A DNA stretch of 64,000 nucleotides from Halorussus halophilus (GCF_008831545.1 NZ_CP044523.1:868001-932000); one strand, 5' to 3'; positions 53,650-60,948 are shown, counted from the first letter of the stretch. The notes: a model not told the origin generated them from the letters alone. Translations and numbers: made by a program.

Positions 53650-53653
53650 ATGA
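53567..53653 (+). CDS. Possible 28-residue upstream leader ORF of nrdJ
   Basis: ATG at 53567, sequence MKSPSRMNRVTPLPVAGIDR and eight further residues, stop TGA overlapping the nrdJ ATG as ATGA. The overlap would couple translation to nrdJ. It is short and may be chance; an internal ATG at 53585 is a second possible start. Confidence 0.3.
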   Translation: MKSPSRMNRVTPLPVAGIDRQTREVSHS

Positions 53654-56600
53654 GCGGTGCGGGCGAACTCACGGCCGAAGAGATTACCCTTCCTATCAAG
53701 CGAACGGAAGGCGTAACCTTAGAAGAGCGCCTGACCGGCAACGCGTACCACAACATCCTCCCTGCGCGTTACCTCCGGAAGAACGCCGACGGCAAGCACA
53801 TCGAGGAACAAGAGGACCTCTTCCCGCGCGTCGCAAAGAACATCGCGCTGGCTGAAGCGGTCTACGAAGCCCAAAAACAGGACGAGGAGATTACGGTCAC
53901 GCCCGACCAACTCAAGCCCGACCACCCGCGACGAGACGAACTCGCCGCCGAAGTGTTCGGCAAGGGCACCACCGCCGAGGACGACGCCGAGACCACGCTC
54001 TCCATCTACAACGTCAACAAGTTCGCGTACGACACCGTGGTTCCGGAACTCCCCGACGAGGTTCGCGCGCACGTCGAGGACACCCGTGACGAGTTCGAGG
54101 ACCTGATGTCGAAACTATCCTTCATGCCGAACTCGCCGACGCTGATGAACGCTGGCGACGAACTCCAGCAGCTCTCTGCGTGTTTCGTGGACTCGCCGGG
54201 CGACGACATCACGGACATCCATCAGACCGCTAAGGAAGCCGCGGAGGTCTTCCAATCCGGCGGCGGCATGGGCTACGCCTTCTGGAAGCTCCGACCGTAC
54301 GGCGACGCCGTGGGTTCGACCGGCGGTATCGCCTCCGGTCCCATCACGTTCATGCGCACGTACGACCAGATGTGCGAGACCATCGCGCAGGGTGGCGCAC
54401 GCCGTGGTGCCCAGATGGGCGTCATGCGCGTCTCGCACCCGGACGTGATTCAGTTCATCCACGCGAAGAACAAGGACGTGAGCCTCGCGCGTAGCCTCCG
54501 ACTCAACGACCCGGACGACTACACGCACAACTCCTTCGCAGATGCCTTAGAGGAAGCACGGGAACTCATCGACGACGACGGCAAGGTGCCCAAGCACCTC
54601 CGCAACGCCGCGGAGGGCCACCTCTCGAACTTCAACATCTCGGTGGGCGTCACCGACGACTTCATGGAAGCTCTCAAAGCGGGCGAGGAGTTCACCTTCA
54701 CGAATCCTCGGACGGAAGAGCCGCACGTCGCCACCGAACACACCAAAGAACTGTACGAGATGTTCGACCTCGGCGAACACGTCGAGGTCGGCGAGGAACT
54801 CTCGATTCCGGCAGACCTGCTGTGGGACCGCATCGTCTCCGGTGCCCACGAGAACGGCGAACCGGGCGTCATCTACCTCGAACGAGTGAACAAGGAACAT
54901 TCCTTCGACGTGGAGGAACACCCGGACCACCGGATTCTGGCGACCAACCCGTGTGGCGAACAGCCGCTCGAAGAGTACGAGGCGTGCAACCTCGGCCACA
55001 TCAACCTCTCGACGCTCGCCGACACCGACGCCCCCGACTGGCGCGTCTGGTACGACGAGAACGGCGACGATTACGAGAGCTTCGCAGACGCAGTTGACGC
55101 GTTCCTCATCGACGCCATCGACTACGAGGAGTTCGACTACCGCATCGACTACGGTACCCGCTTCTTGGAGAACGTCGTCACGATGTCGGACTTCCCGGTC
55201 GAGAAAATCGAAGAGAAGGTCCGCGACATGCGGAAAATCGGTCTCGGCGTCATGGGTCTCGCGCAACTGTACGTCCAACTGGGCGTCGAGTACGGTAGCG
55301 AGGCTGGTAACGAAATCGCCCGGCAGTTGATGCGCCACATCAACCACGAGAGCAAGTGGGCGTCCCACGAACTCGCCGAGGAGCGCGGGTCGTTCAACGA
55401 CTGGGGAGACAGCAAGTACGCCGACCCCACTCGCTACCCCGACTGGTTCGAGAAGCAGACCGGCCTGAAACCCGAGAAGTGGAAAGAAGGCTTCGCGGTT
55501 CGGAACCACAACACGACGACCATCGCACCGACGGGCACGACTTCGATGGTCGGTAACACCACGGGTGGCTGTGAACCCATCTACAACGTCGCCTACTACA
55601 AGAACGTCTCCGACGACGTGCAGGGCGACGAGATGCTCGTGGAGTTCGACGACTACTTCCTCCGCGTGCTGGAGGACAACGACATCGACGTGGACGAAGT
55701 GAAGAAGGAAGCCCAAGAACAGATGGCCGAAAACGAGTTCGACGGCGTCGAAGGCCTCACGACGGTGCCGGACGCCATCGGCGAACTGTTCGTCGTCACC
55801 GCCGACCTCACCGGCAAGGAACACGCCGCAGTCCAGTGTGCTTGCCAAGAGGGCGTGGACTCCGCAATCAGCAAGACCTGCAACTTCCCGAACTCCGCTA
55901 GCAAGGCGGACATGCAGGAAGTGTACGAGTACATCTACGATAACGGCGGCAAGGGCGTCACCGTCTACCGCGACGGCACTCGCAGCAAACAGGTGCTGAC
56001 GACCCGCGCCGACAACAAGGAGTTCGCCGACGAGAGCGAGGCCGCGGAGGCACTCGTCGAGCAGATTCACGACGTGTTCGGCGGCATCGAAGGCTTCCTC
56101 GACAACGAGGACGTTCGTGCATCCCTCGACACCGAAGTCGAGGGCCTACTAGCCGCCGCAGACGGCCAAGTCGAACTCGGCAAGAAGCGCCCGCGCCCGG
56201 ACGTGCTCCACGGCATCACCCAGCGCATCGACACCGGCTACGGCAAGGTGTACGTCAACATCAACGAAGACGACGACGGCCGTCCGTTCGAACTGTTCGC
56301 CAACATCGGCAACTCCGGTGGCTTCACGGCCTCGTTCACCGAGGCACTGGCGAAGACGATTTCGACCGCACTCCGCTCGGGCGTGGACCCCGAGGAAATC
56401 GCCGACGAGTTACAGGGCATCCGCAGTCCGAAGGTTGCGTGGGACAAGGGCGAGCAGATCAACTCCATCCCGGACGCAATCGGCACGGCGATGCGTCGTT
56501 ACCTCGACGGCGAGGTGAACAAGGCGTATCCGCAACAGCAGAACCTCACCGAAGTCGAGGAGACCGACGCGAGCGCCGGTTCGGCGTCGAACGACGAAAG

Positions 56601-56751
56601 CGGCGCTGAGGCGACCTCCGGCAAGGAAGCCGACCAGCAGGACATCATTGCCTCGGGCGAGAGTCCCGAATGTCCGAGCTGTGGCTCGCTGTCGCTGTAC
56701 TACTCCGAAGGCTGCAAGACCTGCGAGTCCTGTGGCTGGTCGGAGTGCTGA
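53650..56751 (+). CDS. nrdJ: Adenosylcobalamin-dependent ribonucleotide reductase (class II)
   Basis: 1033 residues. Reduces ribonucleotides for DNA synthesis using a coenzyme B12 radical. Cys178 (LSACFVDSP) and Cys435 (NPCGEQPLEEYEACNLGHINL) are the redox and thiyl-radical sites; PTGTTSMVGNTTGGCEPIYN is the PTG loop. A C-terminal domain (about 840-940) precedes the zinc-ribbon-like CPSCGSLSLYYSEGCKTCESCGWSEC that carries the re-reducing cysteines. Single gene. Confidence 0.96.
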   Translation: MSGAGELTAEEITLPIKRTEGVTLEERLTGNAYHNILPARYLRKNADGKHIEEQEDLFPRVAKNIALAEAVYEAQKQDEEITVTPDQLKPDHPRRDELAAEVFGKGTTAEDDAETTLSIYNVNKFAYDTVVPELPDEVRAHVEDTRDEFEDLMSKLSFMPNSPTLMNAGDELQQLSACFVDSPGDDITDIHQTAKEAAEVFQSGGGMGYAFWKLRPYGDAVGSTGGIASGPITFMRTYDQMCETIAQGGARRGAQMGVMRVSHPDVIQFIHAKNKDVSLARSLRLNDPDDYTHNSFADALEEARELIDDDGKVPKHLRNAAEGHLSNFNISVGVTDDFMEALKAGEEFTFTNPRTEEPHVATEHTKELYEMFDLGEHVEVGEELSIPADLLWDRIVSGAHENGEPGVIYLERVNKEHSFDVEEHPDHRILATNPCGEQPLEEYEACNLGHINLSTLADTDAPDWRVWYDENGDDYESFADAVDAFLIDAIDYEEFDYRIDYGTRFLENVVTMSDFPVEKIEEKVRDMRKIGLGVMGLAQLYVQLGVEYGSEAGNEIARQLMRHINHESKWASHELAEERGSFNDWGDSKYADPTRYPDWFEKQTGLKPEKWKEGFAVRNHNTTTIAPTGTTSMVGNTTGGCEPIYNVAYYKNVSDDVQGDEMLVEFDDYFLRVLEDNDIDVDEVKKEAQEQMAENEFDGVEGLTTVPDAIGELFVVTADLTGKEHAAVQCACQEGVDSAISKTCNFPNSASKADMQEVYEYIYDNGGKGVTVYRDGTRSKQVLTTRADNKEFADESEAAEALVEQIHDVFGGIEGFLDNEDVRASLDTEVEGLLAAADGQVELGKKRPRPDVLHGITQRIDTGYGKVYVNINEDDDGRPFELFANIGNSGGFTASFTEALAKTISTALRSGVDPEEIADELQGIRSPKVAWDKGEQINSIPDAIGTAMRRYLDGEVNKAYPQQQNLTEVEETDASAGSASNDESGAEATSGKEADQQDIIASGESPECPSCGSLSLYYSEGCKTCESCGWSEC

Positions 56752-56904
56752 CTGACGGACGGTAAGCAGTCACTCTATTTTTGTTCGGCCGGAGAAGTTA
56801 CGTGAGGCGATAGCTTACAACCGTCGGTCTATGTGTTCGTGGGGGATTAGTGGAAGTGACACGAAGTGGTGTAGAGCAGGTATCAGATGGGGGAGTGGAT
56901 TCAG

Positions 56905-58152
56905 ATGGGGCGACTGAAGACGCCAACACGGCGCGGTCTCGCGCTCGTCACCCTCGGACTCGTCCTCGTCGTCGTCGCGTTCGGGGGTAGTTGGGCGTTC
57001 GCGCCCGACGCCCGGACCGTCTCGAACTCGGTGGACGTGAACAACACGACGACACTCGTCGGTGTGCAGGGTCCGGGACCGAACGGGAACGTGACAGCGC
57101 TCGACGGCAAGGGCGACGTGCGCTGGACCATCGGTAATATCATCAGCTATCAGGACGTCTCGCACATGGAGAACGGCTCCGTGTTGGCGACGTTCGCCGC
57201 GGGTCACTACCTCGACTGCGGACCGTACGAACCGCCCTGCAAGCGCACTGGCGTCCGCATCATCGAACCAGACCCCGAACCACACGTCGTCTACCAGTGG
57301 AGCTACCCGGTCAAGACGCGAGAGGACAGCGAGGTACACGACGCAGAGATTCTCCCGTCCGGCAACTTGCTCGTCGCCGACATGGAGTGGGAGAGCATCT
57401 TCGTCCTGAACATGACGACCCGCGAGCGGGTCTGGACGTGGAACGCCAGCGACCACTACGACGCGCCGCCGGACCCACGAAGCGAAGATTGGCTCCACAT
57501 CAACGACGTGGACCGCATCGGCGACGGTCGATACCTCGTCTCGGTTCGCAACACCAATCAACTGCTCATCGTCGAGCGCGGGAAGGGCGTCGTCGATATC
57601 ATCAACGAGAACCGTGACGTAGAGGTGCTGGACAAACAGCACAATCCTCACTGGCTCGGTAACGGAACGGTGCTAGTTGCGGATTCGGAGAATCATCGCG
57701 TTGTGGAACTGCGCGAGAACGAGTCTACGGGGAAGTGGGAGGTCGGCTGGGCAATCGCAAAAGTCGGTGGGATTCCGCTCGACTGGCCGCGAGACGCCGA
57801 CAGACTGCCCAACGGCAACACGCTGATTACCGACAGTCGAAACAACCGCGTGGTCGAAATCTACCCGAACGGGAGCGTCGTGGCGAGTTACGTCGTTCCC
57901 TCGCTCCCCTACGAGGCCGACCGAGTGCCGTACGGCGAGTCGGTCGGTAGGGGGTACGAGCGAGACCGGCAGACAGACTTGGGCCTGTTCGACAAGCAGA
58001 TACCGGTTCTCTCGACGTTGCTCGCGGCCGCTCGCCACGTCGTCGCACTGCCCTACTGGGTGTCGGAACTGCACGTCCTCGTGGTGTTGGTCGCGGGAGT
58101 GCTGTGGGTGGTTGGTGGGGTGATGATAGTTCGGGGTCGGTTGCGGGGATGA
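56905..58152 (+). CDS. Arylsulfotransferase-like beta-propeller protein, membrane anchored at both ends
   Basis: 415 residues from the ATG at 56905, which has GGGGGAG 9 nt upstream; an ATG at 56887 adds six residues. N-terminal signal anchor (RRGLALVTLGLVLVVVAFGG), then propeller repeats of the ASST type (VHDAEILPSGNLLVADME, HINDVDRIGDGRYLVSVRN, HNPHWLGNGTVLVADSENHRVVEL, RDADRLPNGNTLITDSRNNRVVEI), and a C-terminal membrane helix (LHVLVVLVAGVLWVVGGVMIV). The His-containing repeats fit arylsulfotransferase, but the substrate is unknown. Confidence 0.8.
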   Translation: MGRLKTPTRRGLALVTLGLVLVVVAFGGSWAFAPDARTVSNSVDVNNTTTLVGVQGPGPNGNVTALDGKGDVRWTIGNIISYQDVSHMENGSVLATFAAGHYLDCGPYEPPCKRTGVRIIEPDPEPHVVYQWSYPVKTREDSEVHDAEILPSGNLLVADMEWESIFVLNMTTRERVWTWNASDHYDAPPDPRSEDWLHINDVDRIGDGRYLVSVRNTNQLLIVERGKGVVDIINENRDVEVLDKQHNPHWLGNGTVLVADSENHRVVELRENESTGKWEVGWAIAKVGGIPLDWPRDADRLPNGNTLITDSRNNRVVEIYPNGSVVASYVVPSLPYEADRVPYGESVGRGYERDRQTDLGLFDKQIPVLSTLLAAARHVVALPYWVSELHVLVVLVAGVLWVVGGVMIVRGRLRG

Positions 58153-58174: not shown

Positions 58175-58462
58175 CTACTTCATCGTCACGTACGTCAGGA
58201 ACCCGAGCGCGACGAGTTGGAGGCCGCGAAGCACCAGCACCGCCTGCTGAACGGTCGGGTCGCCCGAGTACAGCATCTTCATGCTGAAGAAGAAGTAGAT
58301 GGCGACGACGTTCTCCACGAGCATCACGGAACCGAACGCGACGAGACCGAGGACCAGCGGCGTGCGGAACTTGCGGTAGTTGCGCACCCAGACCGCGGTC
58401 AGCAGGGTCAACAGGAGGATGTTCACGACCGCTAGTCCACTCGCTATCTGTATCGAACTCAT
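58175..58462 (-). CDS. Small three-helix membrane protein next to a winged-helix regulator
   Basis: 95 residues with three membrane segments (SGLAVVNILLLTLLTAVWV, TPLVLGLVAFGSVMLVENVVAIYFFFSM and VLVLRGLQLVALGFLTYVTM). Its start overlaps the stop of the regulator by 4 bp, so the two are made together; the membrane protein may sense a signal for it. Resembles small haloarchaeal membrane proteins of unknown function. Confidence 0.7.
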   Translation of the reverse strand: MSSIQIASGLAVVNILLLTLLTAVWVRNYRKFRTPLVLGLVAFGSVMLVENVVAIYFFFSMKMLYSGDPTVQQAVLVLRGLQLVALGFLTYVTMK

Positions 58463-58734
58463 TCTATCTGCTCCATGATTTCCTCGAATGCGTCTCGGTG
58501 CTGCTCGAACTGGTCGGTGAGGAAGTACAGTTTCCCGTACTCGTTGTTCCCGGCCTCGACCACGCCGTGGTCTGCGAGCATGTCGAGGTGGTGTCGAATC
58601 GTCTTGTATCGCACGTCGAGCACGTCCGCGAGTTGGTTCGCGTTCCGTGGGCGCTCGGAGAGAGCCTGAATAATCCGCGCACGGTTCTCGCCGCCACGGG
58701 TCGCCGTGAGTAGATACCAGAGCGCCTTGTCCAT
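58459..58734 (-). CDS. ArsR-type winged-helix transcriptional regulator
   Basis: 91 residues. NRARIIQALSERPRNANQLADVLDVRYKTIRHHLDMLADHGVVEAG is a classic winged helix with a wing at YGKLYFLTDQF. No metal-binding Cys pair is present. It follows the molybdoenzyme gene by 40 bp on the same strand and may control the operon. Confidence 0.85.
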   Translation of the reverse strand: MDKALWYLLTATRGGENRARIIQALSERPRNANQLADVLDVRYKTIRHHLDMLADHGVVEAGNNEYGKLYFLTDQFEQHRDAFEEIMEQIE

Positions 58735-58774
58735 CGACTAGTCACTCTATTGTGTGTCATGCGGGCAGATATAT

Positions 58775-60295
58775 TTAGGGCTCGATACGCTTGCTGACCC
58801 ACCCGGTGGGACCGCTCGGGAACGACTTGCGCTTTTCCTTCGGTTGTAGGGTCCCCGTGCCGTCAGTGGCCCGGACGACGACTTCGTGGGGGTCACTCGC
58901 TTCGTAGGTGTACTCCCACTGTCGCCACACGTCCTCGCCGGGAAGTTTCTCCGAGAGCGTCGCGTCCGACCACGAGTTGCCACCGTCGGTCGAAACTTCG
59001 ACGCGCTCGATGCCGCGCGTTCCGGCGTAGGCCTGCCCGCCGACCTGAATCGTGCCGTCGTCGCGCACGTTCGTCGCGTAGAGCTTTGCGACGGTCTCGA
59101 CGGGGCCAGTACCGTGCCAGCCTCGGCGTTCCCAGTAACCGTTCTGCTCTTTCTCCAGCACCTCGATTTCGGTGAGCCACTTGACGTTGATTTCGCCCCA
59201 GTGGCCGGGTATCAGCGCCCGGACAGGGTGGCCGTGGCCGCGGGGGAGTGGGTCGCCGTTCATCCCGTAGGCCAGAAAGCCGTTGCGGAGGGCCGACAGC
59301 GGGAACTCTTCGAAGTAGTCGTCCGCGGCACGGAGCATCACGCAGCACTCGTCGGGCAGGCCACCAGCCTCGTCGAGGAGGTCCATGACCGGTACGCCCG
59401 TCCAGAGCGCGTTGTCCATCTTCTTGCCGTTGAGTGAGTCGCCGACGCAGCGAAGGGTCACGAACCGGTTCTCGGCGGGGAGACTGGTCAGGTCCTCGTA
59501 GTCGAACTCCATCTCCTCTTCGACGGCACCAGTGACTTTGAGGCTCCACGAGTCGGCTTCCAGCGAGGGGTCCACGTTGCTAATGTCTACCTGGTAGAAC
59601 TTCTCGCTGACCAGCGGTTCGAGACCATCGACCGACAGCGACTTCGAGTCGGCGTCCGCGAGGAGCGACTCGACTTCGCTCGACTCGTCGCCTTGCGTAC
59701 CGCTGGGGTCCGAGTTCGGGCCGTCCAAAGCACTGCTCGGTTGCGAAGTACTGCCCTGCTGTGCGCCGAGGACAGCACTGACGCCGCCAAAAGCCAGCGT
59801 GCCAGCGACGGCACCCAAGACGCGCCGCCGCGCCGAGGAGGACGACGAGTCACCGCTCCCGGCACTGAGTTGCCCGACGGTGAGGACGAGAGCGGCACCG
59901 ACACCAGCGGCGAGTGCGGAGGTCACTGCTCCCGTAAGTGCGACGGCCACTGCCACGCAGGCTAGTCCCGCAAACGGCGGGGACGGGAGCGAGAACTTGT
60001 TGGCGAGCAACGTCCCGAGACCTGCCGCCACCGCGAACAGGGAGACGGTAAGCGCGAGAGCCAGCAGGAGACTCAGTTGGTGACCGAGGTCACCGAGTGT
60101 CTGGATAGACCACGCGACGACTGCGTCGGGCGTGGTCGCGACGACGAAGGCACTGACCGGTGCAGCGACCCACTCCGGGGTGAATCCGACCGCCGCGTAG
60201 GACCCCGCGAGAGCCGCGACACCGGCGAACAGCGCGAGAGCGCCGTCGCTAGCGACTTCGAACGTGTGGTCGTCCGTCGGACGGTCGTGGGTCAT
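58775..60295 (-). CDS. Membrane-anchored sulfite-oxidase-family molybdoenzyme
   Basis: 506 residues. Residues 1-180 hold about five hydrophobic segments, the last after a twin-arginine-like RRRVLGAVAGTLAFGG. The catalytic domain (about 230-400) has the molybdenum ligand Cys283 (TLRCVGDSLNGKKMDNALWTG) and GHGHPVRALIPGHWG; a C-terminal dimerisation domain (about 420-490) has VEVSTDGGNSWSDATL. The family includes sulfite oxidases and YedY/MsrP methionine-sulfoxide reductases; the dimerisation domain favours the sulfite oxidase branch. It starts 1 bp after the Met-rich surface protein gene. Confidence 0.88.
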   Translation of the reverse strand: MTHDRPTDDHTFEVASDGALALFAGVAALAGSYAAVGFTPEWVAAPVSAFVVATTPDAVVAWSIQTLGDLGHQLSLLLALALTVSLFAVAAGLGTLLANKFSLPSPPFAGLACVAVAVALTGAVTSALAAGVGAALVLTVGQLSAGSGDSSSSSARRRVLGAVAGTLAFGGVSAVLGAQQGSTSQPSSALDGPNSDPSGTQGDESSEVESLLADADSKSLSVDGLEPLVSEKFYQVDISNVDPSLEADSWSLKVTGAVEEEMEFDYEDLTSLPAENRFVTLRCVGDSLNGKKMDNALWTGVPVMDLLDEAGGLPDECCVMLRAADDYFEEFPLSALRNGFLAYGMNGDPLPRGHGHPVRALIPGHWGEINVKWLTEIEVLEKEQNGYWERRGWHGTGPVETVAKLYATNVRDDGTIQVGGQAYAGTRGIERVEVSTDGGNSWSDATLSEKLPGEDVWRQWEYTYEASDPHEVVVRATDGTGTLQPKEKRKSFPSGPTGWVSKRIEP

Positions 60296-60296
60296 C

Positions 60297-60812
60297 TTAT
60301 CGGCCTCGTGCAGCGTAGAGTACGATTGCGACGAATGCGAGGAGGACGGTCACGACACCGAATCCGGGCGCGAATGCCCCCGAATCGTCACCGTCGTTGG
60401 CGGTCGAATTGTCGTCATCCATTGCGGTGGTGTCTCCCATCTCGTCGCTCGTGGTCTCCATCGAATCGTCCATGGTCTCGGTCGAGTTCGCCATGGTCGT
60501 CTCGTCCATACCATCACTCATGTTACCGTCGGACATGGTGGTTTCGTTCATCGAGTCGTCCATCGTCTCGTTGCCCATACTCGTCTCGTTCGCCATCGAG
60601 GAATCGTTACCCATCGTCGTTTCGTCGACCATCGTCTCGTTACCCATTCCGTCACCAGTGGTCGTCTCGTTCATCCCGTCCTGTGCGGTGATGGGAGCGA
60701 GGGAGACGACGCCAGCAGAGGCTGTGTTACTACTAGCGGCACTCACTGTAATCGGGGCGAGGCAGAGAGCCGACACGACTATTCCGAACACGACTGCGCT
60801 TCTAACACGCAT
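60297..60812 (-). CDS. Methionine-rich PGF-CTERM surface protein
   Basis: 171 residues from MRVRSAVVFGIVVSALCLAP at 60812 (signal peptide to about residue 25). Residues 46-131 contain 16 Met in 86 positions, in imperfect units such as MGNETM, MNETTM and DDSM, with many N-x-S/T sequons for glycosylation and many Asp/Glu. PGF at 149-151, a hydrophobic helix and RGR form a PGF-CTERM anchor. Directly followed (1 bp) by the molybdoenzyme. It could be an oxidisable Met sink or a glycosylated stalk. Confidence 0.8.
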   Translation of the reverse strand: MRVRSAVVFGIVVSALCLAPITVSAASSNTASAGVVSLAPITAQDGMNETTTGDGMGNETMVDETTMGNDSSMANETSMGNETMDDSMNETTMSDGNMSDGMDETTMANSTETMDDSMETTSDEMGDTTAMDDDNSTANDGDDSGAFAPGFGVVTVLLAFVAIVLYAARGR

Positions 60813-60948
60813 ATTCCGAGCTTCGACGTGGGCATAAAAAGCAATTTTTCGAACTCTCGCCCACTCTGTGGGCACTCTCTGGGCACTCTGTTCCAATTCT
60901 CTTCCAAATTCCGGTACGCGTAAGGGGAGTGGAAACGAACCAGCTGAC

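Follow-up and report, generated by a model that had tools for sequence, protein, structure and literature searches.

A methionine-rich surface protein linked to a membrane-anchored SUOX-family molybdoenzyme across haloarchaea may form part of a surface oxidant buffer

Azospira suillum and perchlorate-reduction islands encode a methionine-rich peptide, MrpX, together with YedY/YedZ (MsrPQ). Azospira and Brucella both place such a peptide and MsrP/Q under joint ECF sigma/anti-sigma control, and the systems defend against HOCl (PMC4623255, PMC8315932). The peptide of the Brucella BcrXQP system was described as an MXKDX repeat protein (PMC8315932). Sco3746, which has five membrane segments and two b hemes held by conserved His residues, is inserted by both Sec and Tat with its Moco domain outside; the available part of that paper mentions euryarchaeal members of this type and gives no physiological role for Sco3746 (PMC5449189). 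A 2018 review listed no known role in methionine sulfoxide (MetO) reduction or methionine repair for archaeal enzymes of the sulfite-oxidase (SUOX) family (PMC6211008), and two papers on hypochlorite in Haloferax (PMC6267482, PMC9426492) leave SUOX enzymes of the kind described below unmentioned.

We analyzed a 64-kb window (the whole stretch of DNA under study) on a 3.6-Mb haloarchaeal contig, in which four minus-strand genes follow one another with spacings of 1, 40 and -4 bases, in the order Met-rich protein, SUOX enzyme, winged helix, TM95 (Table 1). Like MrpX-MsrPQ and BcrXQP, the locus sets a small exported Met-rich protein beside a SUOX-fold molybdoenzyme, theirs being in a stress operon. 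An earlier sequence-only reading of this DNA had reported that the SUOX gene lies 1 bp downstream of the Met-rich gene and is followed by winged-helix and small membrane protein genes overlapping by 4 bp, and the coordinates agreed on both points, with the SUOX gene beginning (60295) one base past the stop codon of the Met-rich gene (60297). The A/T-rich element GAAAAATTGCTTTTTATG, read by eye, ends about 20 bases 5' of the ATG of the Met-rich gene and is likely, from its sequence, to be a promoter fitting a leaderless haloarchaeal transcript; a bacterial promoter scan of the locus was uninformative for archaea.

Table 1. Positions, within the window, of the four genes, the putative promoter and two neighboring genes
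Feature	Position	Strand	Description
Met-rich surface protein	60297..60812	-	Signal peptide, 86-aa array, divergent PGF-CTERM-like anchor
SUOX-fold molybdoenzyme	58775..60295	-	Membrane-anchored; Cys283 Mo ligand; weak Mo-co dimerisation domain
Winged helix-turn-helix regulator	58459..58734	-	ArsR-like, 91 aa
TM95	58175..58462	-	Small membrane protein, three hydrophobic segments
Likely promoter	60813..60850	-	A/T-rich GAAAAATTGCTTTTTATG element, putative, read by eye
Neighboring gene	56887..58152	+	Arylsulfotransferase/NHL-type membrane protein
Neighboring gene	53650..56751	+	Ribonucleotide-reductase-like

We read this operon, with modest confidence, as a rechargeable surface oxidant buffer that combines a Met sink with an attached sulfoxide reductase. 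An anchored, exposed and disordered Met array would react with strong oxidants (candidates being hypohalous acids, peroxides and chlorite-type species) before other surface proteins did, and the SUOX enzyme, with its Mo domain on the array's side of the membrane, would turn the methionine sulfoxides of the array back into methionine. The winged helix and TM95 (the HTH-TM95 pair) may tune expression to membrane conditions. We infer both the sulfoxide-reductase activity of the enzyme and the link to chloride or hypochlorite. We know of no earlier system in Archaea that joins a MetO-recycling SUOX enzyme to a sacrificial Met array; if the reading is true, it would provide a concrete two-part system protecting an archaeal cell surface.

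The Met-rich protein (171 aa) contains 17 Met, 16 of them within the 86 residues 47-132, exactly as the sequence-only reading had counted. It has hydrophobic segments at 5-23 and 147-165, with no folded domain, and its array consists of Met, Asp, Glu, Thr, Ser and Asn. PGFG, a hydrophobic segment and Arg follow in that order at the C-terminus, but the PGF-CTERM model (TIGR04126, cut-off 24.5 bits) gave 14.8-18.3 bits, with 14.8 bits for this protein, making the anchor a divergent, below-threshold PGF-CTERM. A structure prediction made from the window protein and one homolog reached a pLDDT of 38 and the model was set aside, and a DNA pattern for the Met spacing yielded nothing useful. The 90 residues before the anchor contain 14 Met, compared with 0-3 (mean 0.7) in the same stretch of 20 other PGF-CTERM proteins of the genome. 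Similarly, linker-like 50-aa windows across 464 kb of the genome (window included) contained 0-3 Met compared with 10 of 50 in the Met-rich protein, in a scan with a GC3 filter below which the array's own ORF fell. A whole-protein search of the genome with the Met-rich protein found no second array of this sort.

Forty arrays collected across haloarchaea averaged 18% Met and 31% Asp plus Glu, along with Thr, Ser, Gly and Asn, while His (0.1%), Cys (0.5%) and Lys (0.2%) were nearly absent. The methionines usually came one per 4-6 residues and numbered up to 29 in one domainless array, and array lengths differed widely. When stand-alone arrays were aligned, four Met columns and one Asp column came out near-invariant, in repeats that self-align easily. 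Arrays keep their Met and acidic surroundings and little else, and the expectation that Met density would be kept while the remainder of the array varied was borne out. Four architectures occupied the slot directly upstream of SUOX: a domainless array flanked by a signal peptide and, at the C-terminus, a PGF/TM anchor; a domainless Tat-type lipoprotein consisting of the array alone (L134, L136, L137, L142 and L381 from Halobaculum); and lipoproteins in which an array or stalk accompanies either a spondin domain or a DUF7482 domain. Since neither of the first two contains a folded domain, "linker" is an insufficient description. Additionally, in L150 and L257 Met-rich acidic stretches occurred as loops within the spondin-like domain, besides the stalk.

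These compositions bear on two other explanations. The array could be no more than a common type of glycosylated stalk that became Met-rich by drift through repeat expansion, as the nine N-x-S/T sequons and low complexity of the window protein and the clear tandem repeats of some arrays (L134, L137, L359) might suggest. We consider this highly improbable, given that unrelated architectures at this one locus are repeatedly Met-enriched, across 10 families, that 20 other anchored stalks of the genome show no such enrichment, and that several arrays stand without any domain. The related caveat raised in the sequence-only reading, that the Met-rich region may be a glycosylated, passive linker, loses force, since in many arrays there is no folded domain that could be linked. 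Known proteins use Met clusters to bind soft metals, so the Met/acid array might instead bind Cu(I) or Ag(I) as part of a metal-tolerance module, and the regulator does resemble ArsR-type winged helices. That explanation is very unlikely in view of the near absence of His and Cys from the 40 arrays and of any Cys from the regulator; moreover, the conserved module includes no metal transporter gene, and the molybdoenzyme partner would be left unexplained.

We evaluated how often array and enzyme occur together in a sample of 104 haloarchaeal SUOX loci. A Met array was located directly upstream of SUOX on the same strand in 41 of these (21 genera, 10 families), and the HTH-TM95 pair lay beside SUOX in 71 (35 genera, 10 families), downstream in 70 and divergent in L136. 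Arrays preceded 40 of the 71 HTH-TM95-linked enzymes versus 1 of the 33 unlinked ones, or, counted by genus, 20 of 35 versus 1 of 19. Fisher's test for linkage against array, computed with 39 of 71 and uncorrected for relatedness, gave p = 5e-8; a test of independent pairs never ran in the opposite direction, with too few pairs for significance. The SUOX tree called for a minimum of 18 changes in the Met trait, indicating many gains or losses in the same slot, and within the window's own genus the two species of L044 and L055 retain SUOX but lack array, HTH and TM95 alike. Scans of the neighborhoods of array-less loci did not find a Met array outside the slot. When 293 genomes were searched with a model built from 14 arrays, 28 of the 30 best matches lay directly upstream of SUOX on the same strand, a proportion that the model's origin in enzyme-adjacent arrays may favor. 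The other two were Met-rich linkers in large PGF-CTERM proteins of one genus (L374 in G087 and L379 in G058), where the linker is acidic, with 8 Met in 50 residues, and SUOX is not adjacent.

It is near certain that the association of array and SUOX is real, old and selective for methionine. The adjacency to which the sequence-only reading had drawn attention is thus conserved across 10 families and holds in the 40 linked loci, but it does not extend to 31 linked loci or to nearly all unlinked ones, and some Met-rich stalks occur away from SUOX. The 31 linked loci without an array imply that SUOX has another or a wider job.

Spondin proteins served as a natural control for these findings; we identified them with our own alignment, Pfam Spond_N being too insensitive. 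Those encoded directly upstream of SUOX had 3-7 Met in the final 45 residues of the stalk (the stalk of L241 was clipped by the method and is Met-rich at full length), versus mostly 0-2 in the 51 encoded elsewhere, including those beside HTH-TM95 without SUOX (p = 2e-4). Four or five exceptions were Met-rich away from SUOX (L246, L248, L257, L265, L267), and their genomes carry SUOX at another place. The Met-rich spondin lipoprotein L246 lies on a 4.2-kb contig (G155:C219) and may have its SUOX partner on a different short contig; its separation from SUOX is probably an assembly break. DUF7482 lipoproteins broke the rule, with mostly 2-8 stalk Met at any location, and about a dozen genomes had Met-rich ones away from SUOX. 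The SUOX list did not include a few genomes whose stalks had a moderate Met content. The spondin exceptions and the DUF7482 stalks together show that Met-rich stalks are not exclusive to the SUOX neighborhood.

The SUOX enzyme (506 aa) matched PF00174 with 135 bits and, as the sequence-only reading had proposed, carried a C-terminal dimerisation domain (PF03404, 38.6 bits, cut-off 22.7) and a Mo ligand, Cys283, that proved invariant in 104 of 104 homologs. The YedY label given by that reading could not be kept in its strict sense. Against the MsrP model NF003767 (cut-off 207 bits) the enzyme scored 52.9 bits and E. coli MsrP 504, and a PF01794 search, positive in E. coli, found no MsrQ-type protein in the genome. 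The enzyme is a member of a distinct membrane-anchored family that, unlike MsrP, carries membrane segments itself, has a dimerisation domain and does without MsrQ. It shares the SUOX fold, Cys Mo ligand and Mo-co dimerisation domain with SorA, SorT and SoxC, but falls far under their family cut-offs (111.8 of 600, 94.6 of 570 and 110.8 of 420 bits, respectively) and lacks two sulfite-site arginines, those of the RNH/RNN and CxGNxR motifs: the window enzyme and its homologs have FYxVDI instead of YIRNH and CVG[E/D]xLNG instead of CSGNGR. PDB entries 4pw3, 5k3x and 5wa0 have R, K and Q at the first of these arginines, suggesting that it was mutated in structural work as a residue of the active site.

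The place of the first motif is taken by NNFYEF in MsrP, and the haloarchaeal SUOX profile aligned with YedY (1xdq) from the FY motif on, while alignments with sulfite oxidases mostly started later. Cys283 and FY[E/Q] are conserved in the family and align with MsrP, but the positions of N45 and E104, which we take to be residues with roles in MsrP, do not coincide. The lost arginines and the alignment of the FY motif with YedY favor a substrate other than sulfite, without proving that it is MetO. We regard it as quite unlikely that the enzyme oxidizes sulfite or another small substrate, with the Met-rich protein as a docking stalk or spacer that has no redox role. Its nearest PDB sequences are mostly sulfite oxidases and dehydrogenases, its dimerisation domain is a sulfite-oxidase trait, and many homologs occur without an array. 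However, such a role does not fit the absence of both arginines, and the same genome encodes five other SUOX proteins (a 56%-identical paralog without the module, two SorT-like and two short), of which the SorT-like L001 retains both YIRNH and CSGNGR; nor would a spacer account for a preference for Met over the Thr, Ser and Glu of ordinary haloarchaeal linkers.

A simple hydropathy scan placed six hydrophobic segments at the N-terminus of the enzyme, the sixth following a twin Arg (156-157) that is invariant in the family. In having membrane segments at the N-terminus, a conserved twin Arg ahead of the final one and a molybdenum domain at the C-terminus, the enzyme resembles Sco3746, whose heme-binding His residues, however, have no counterpart: the family alignment showed no conserved His in the membrane segments. 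The absence of both MsrQ and conserved His speaks against the oxidant-buffer reading, which needs a source of electrons. The twin-Arg motif, taken with the Sec/Tat precedent of Sco3746, would place the Mo domain outside the cytoplasm, on the same side as the array. If the oxidant-buffer reading is true, a role would furthermore be assigned to a family of membrane molybdoenzymes whose annotation stops at "molybdopterin-dependent oxidoreductase", next to a "hypothetical protein" (e.g. WP_284063680.1, Halobaculum).

TM95 matched no Pfam family above cut-off. Its SMKMLYSGDP loop, predicted to connect segments 2 and 3, is well conserved, but the second Met of this loop is often, though not always, lost in TM95 proteins without SUOX. 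We also observed HTH-TM95 beside spondin or DUF7482 secreted proteins with no SUOX near (L153-L155, L160, L162, L315, L316, L320), where the pair looks like a general regulator or sensor of such surface proteins. The array, along with the Met loop of TM95, might accordingly be a sensor and not a sink, reporting surface oxidation to the winged helix while SUOX resets the signal. In its favor, nothing marks array-bearing SUOX loci better than HTH-TM95, which is found with spondin proteins too where SUOX is absent; the TM95 loop is conserved, and bacterial HprS detects HOCl via periplasmic Met (PMC10151825). Nevertheless we judge this possibility unlikely: the number of Met in the largest domainless array exceeds what a sensor needs, array length is highly variable, and the loop Met does not persist consistently in the absence of SUOX.

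Returning to the oxidant-buffer reading, the archaeal module is best read as an independently assembled counterpart of MrpX-MsrP(Q) and not as a member of the MrpX/BcrXQP class, since both its Met-rich protein and its SUOX enzyme fail the family tests. The MXKDX model (TIGR02953, cut-off 41 bits) did not match the window protein and gave 11.6 bits for a haloarchaeal lipoprotein array (the query approximating L134 with a slightly different N-terminus). Unlike the MXKDX peptide of Brucella, the haloarchaeal array is acidic, almost without Lys, and anchored to membrane or lipid, and its operon has HTH-TM95 in place of the ECF sigma factors of MrpX-MsrPQ and BcrXQP. If true, this would represent convergent evolution of sacrificial Met proteins.

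Membrane SUOX enzymes with 35-40% identity over the catalytic core were also found on actinobacterial plasmids (L383, L384, L386-L390), and a related one on a Thermus plasmid (L385); such genes lie beside fasciclin lipoproteins and anti-sigma genes, and a sigma-70 gene is located beside the Thermus and Arthrobacter enzymes. Unlike the domainless arrays, the actinobacterial partner is exported and has a folded fasciclin domain; several carry Met in the stalk, few to six in number, and sigma/anti-sigma regulators replace HTH-TM95. The literature searched contained no description of this actinobacterial cluster. We regard these loci as a second echo of the same theme in few plasmid records, which make a small and uneven sample. 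Tentatively, and thinking it somewhat more apt to be wrong than right, we propose a third, widespread class of envelope MetO recycling, independent of MrpX/MsrPQ, in which archaeal and actinobacterial membrane SUOX enzymes without MsrQ would act on surface proteins with sacrificial Met arrays.

Neighboring ASST-like, VTT or zinc-finger genes were dropped as an explanation of the module, being mostly unconserved with it beyond close relatives. The arylsulfotransferase/NHL-type gene is convergent to the module, an adjacency kept only in close relatives. The ribonucleotide-reductase-like gene also lies near SUOX in L041-L046, L061, L064, L071 and L074, in several families and even where HTH-TM95 is missing, suggesting that this chromosomal position is ancient.
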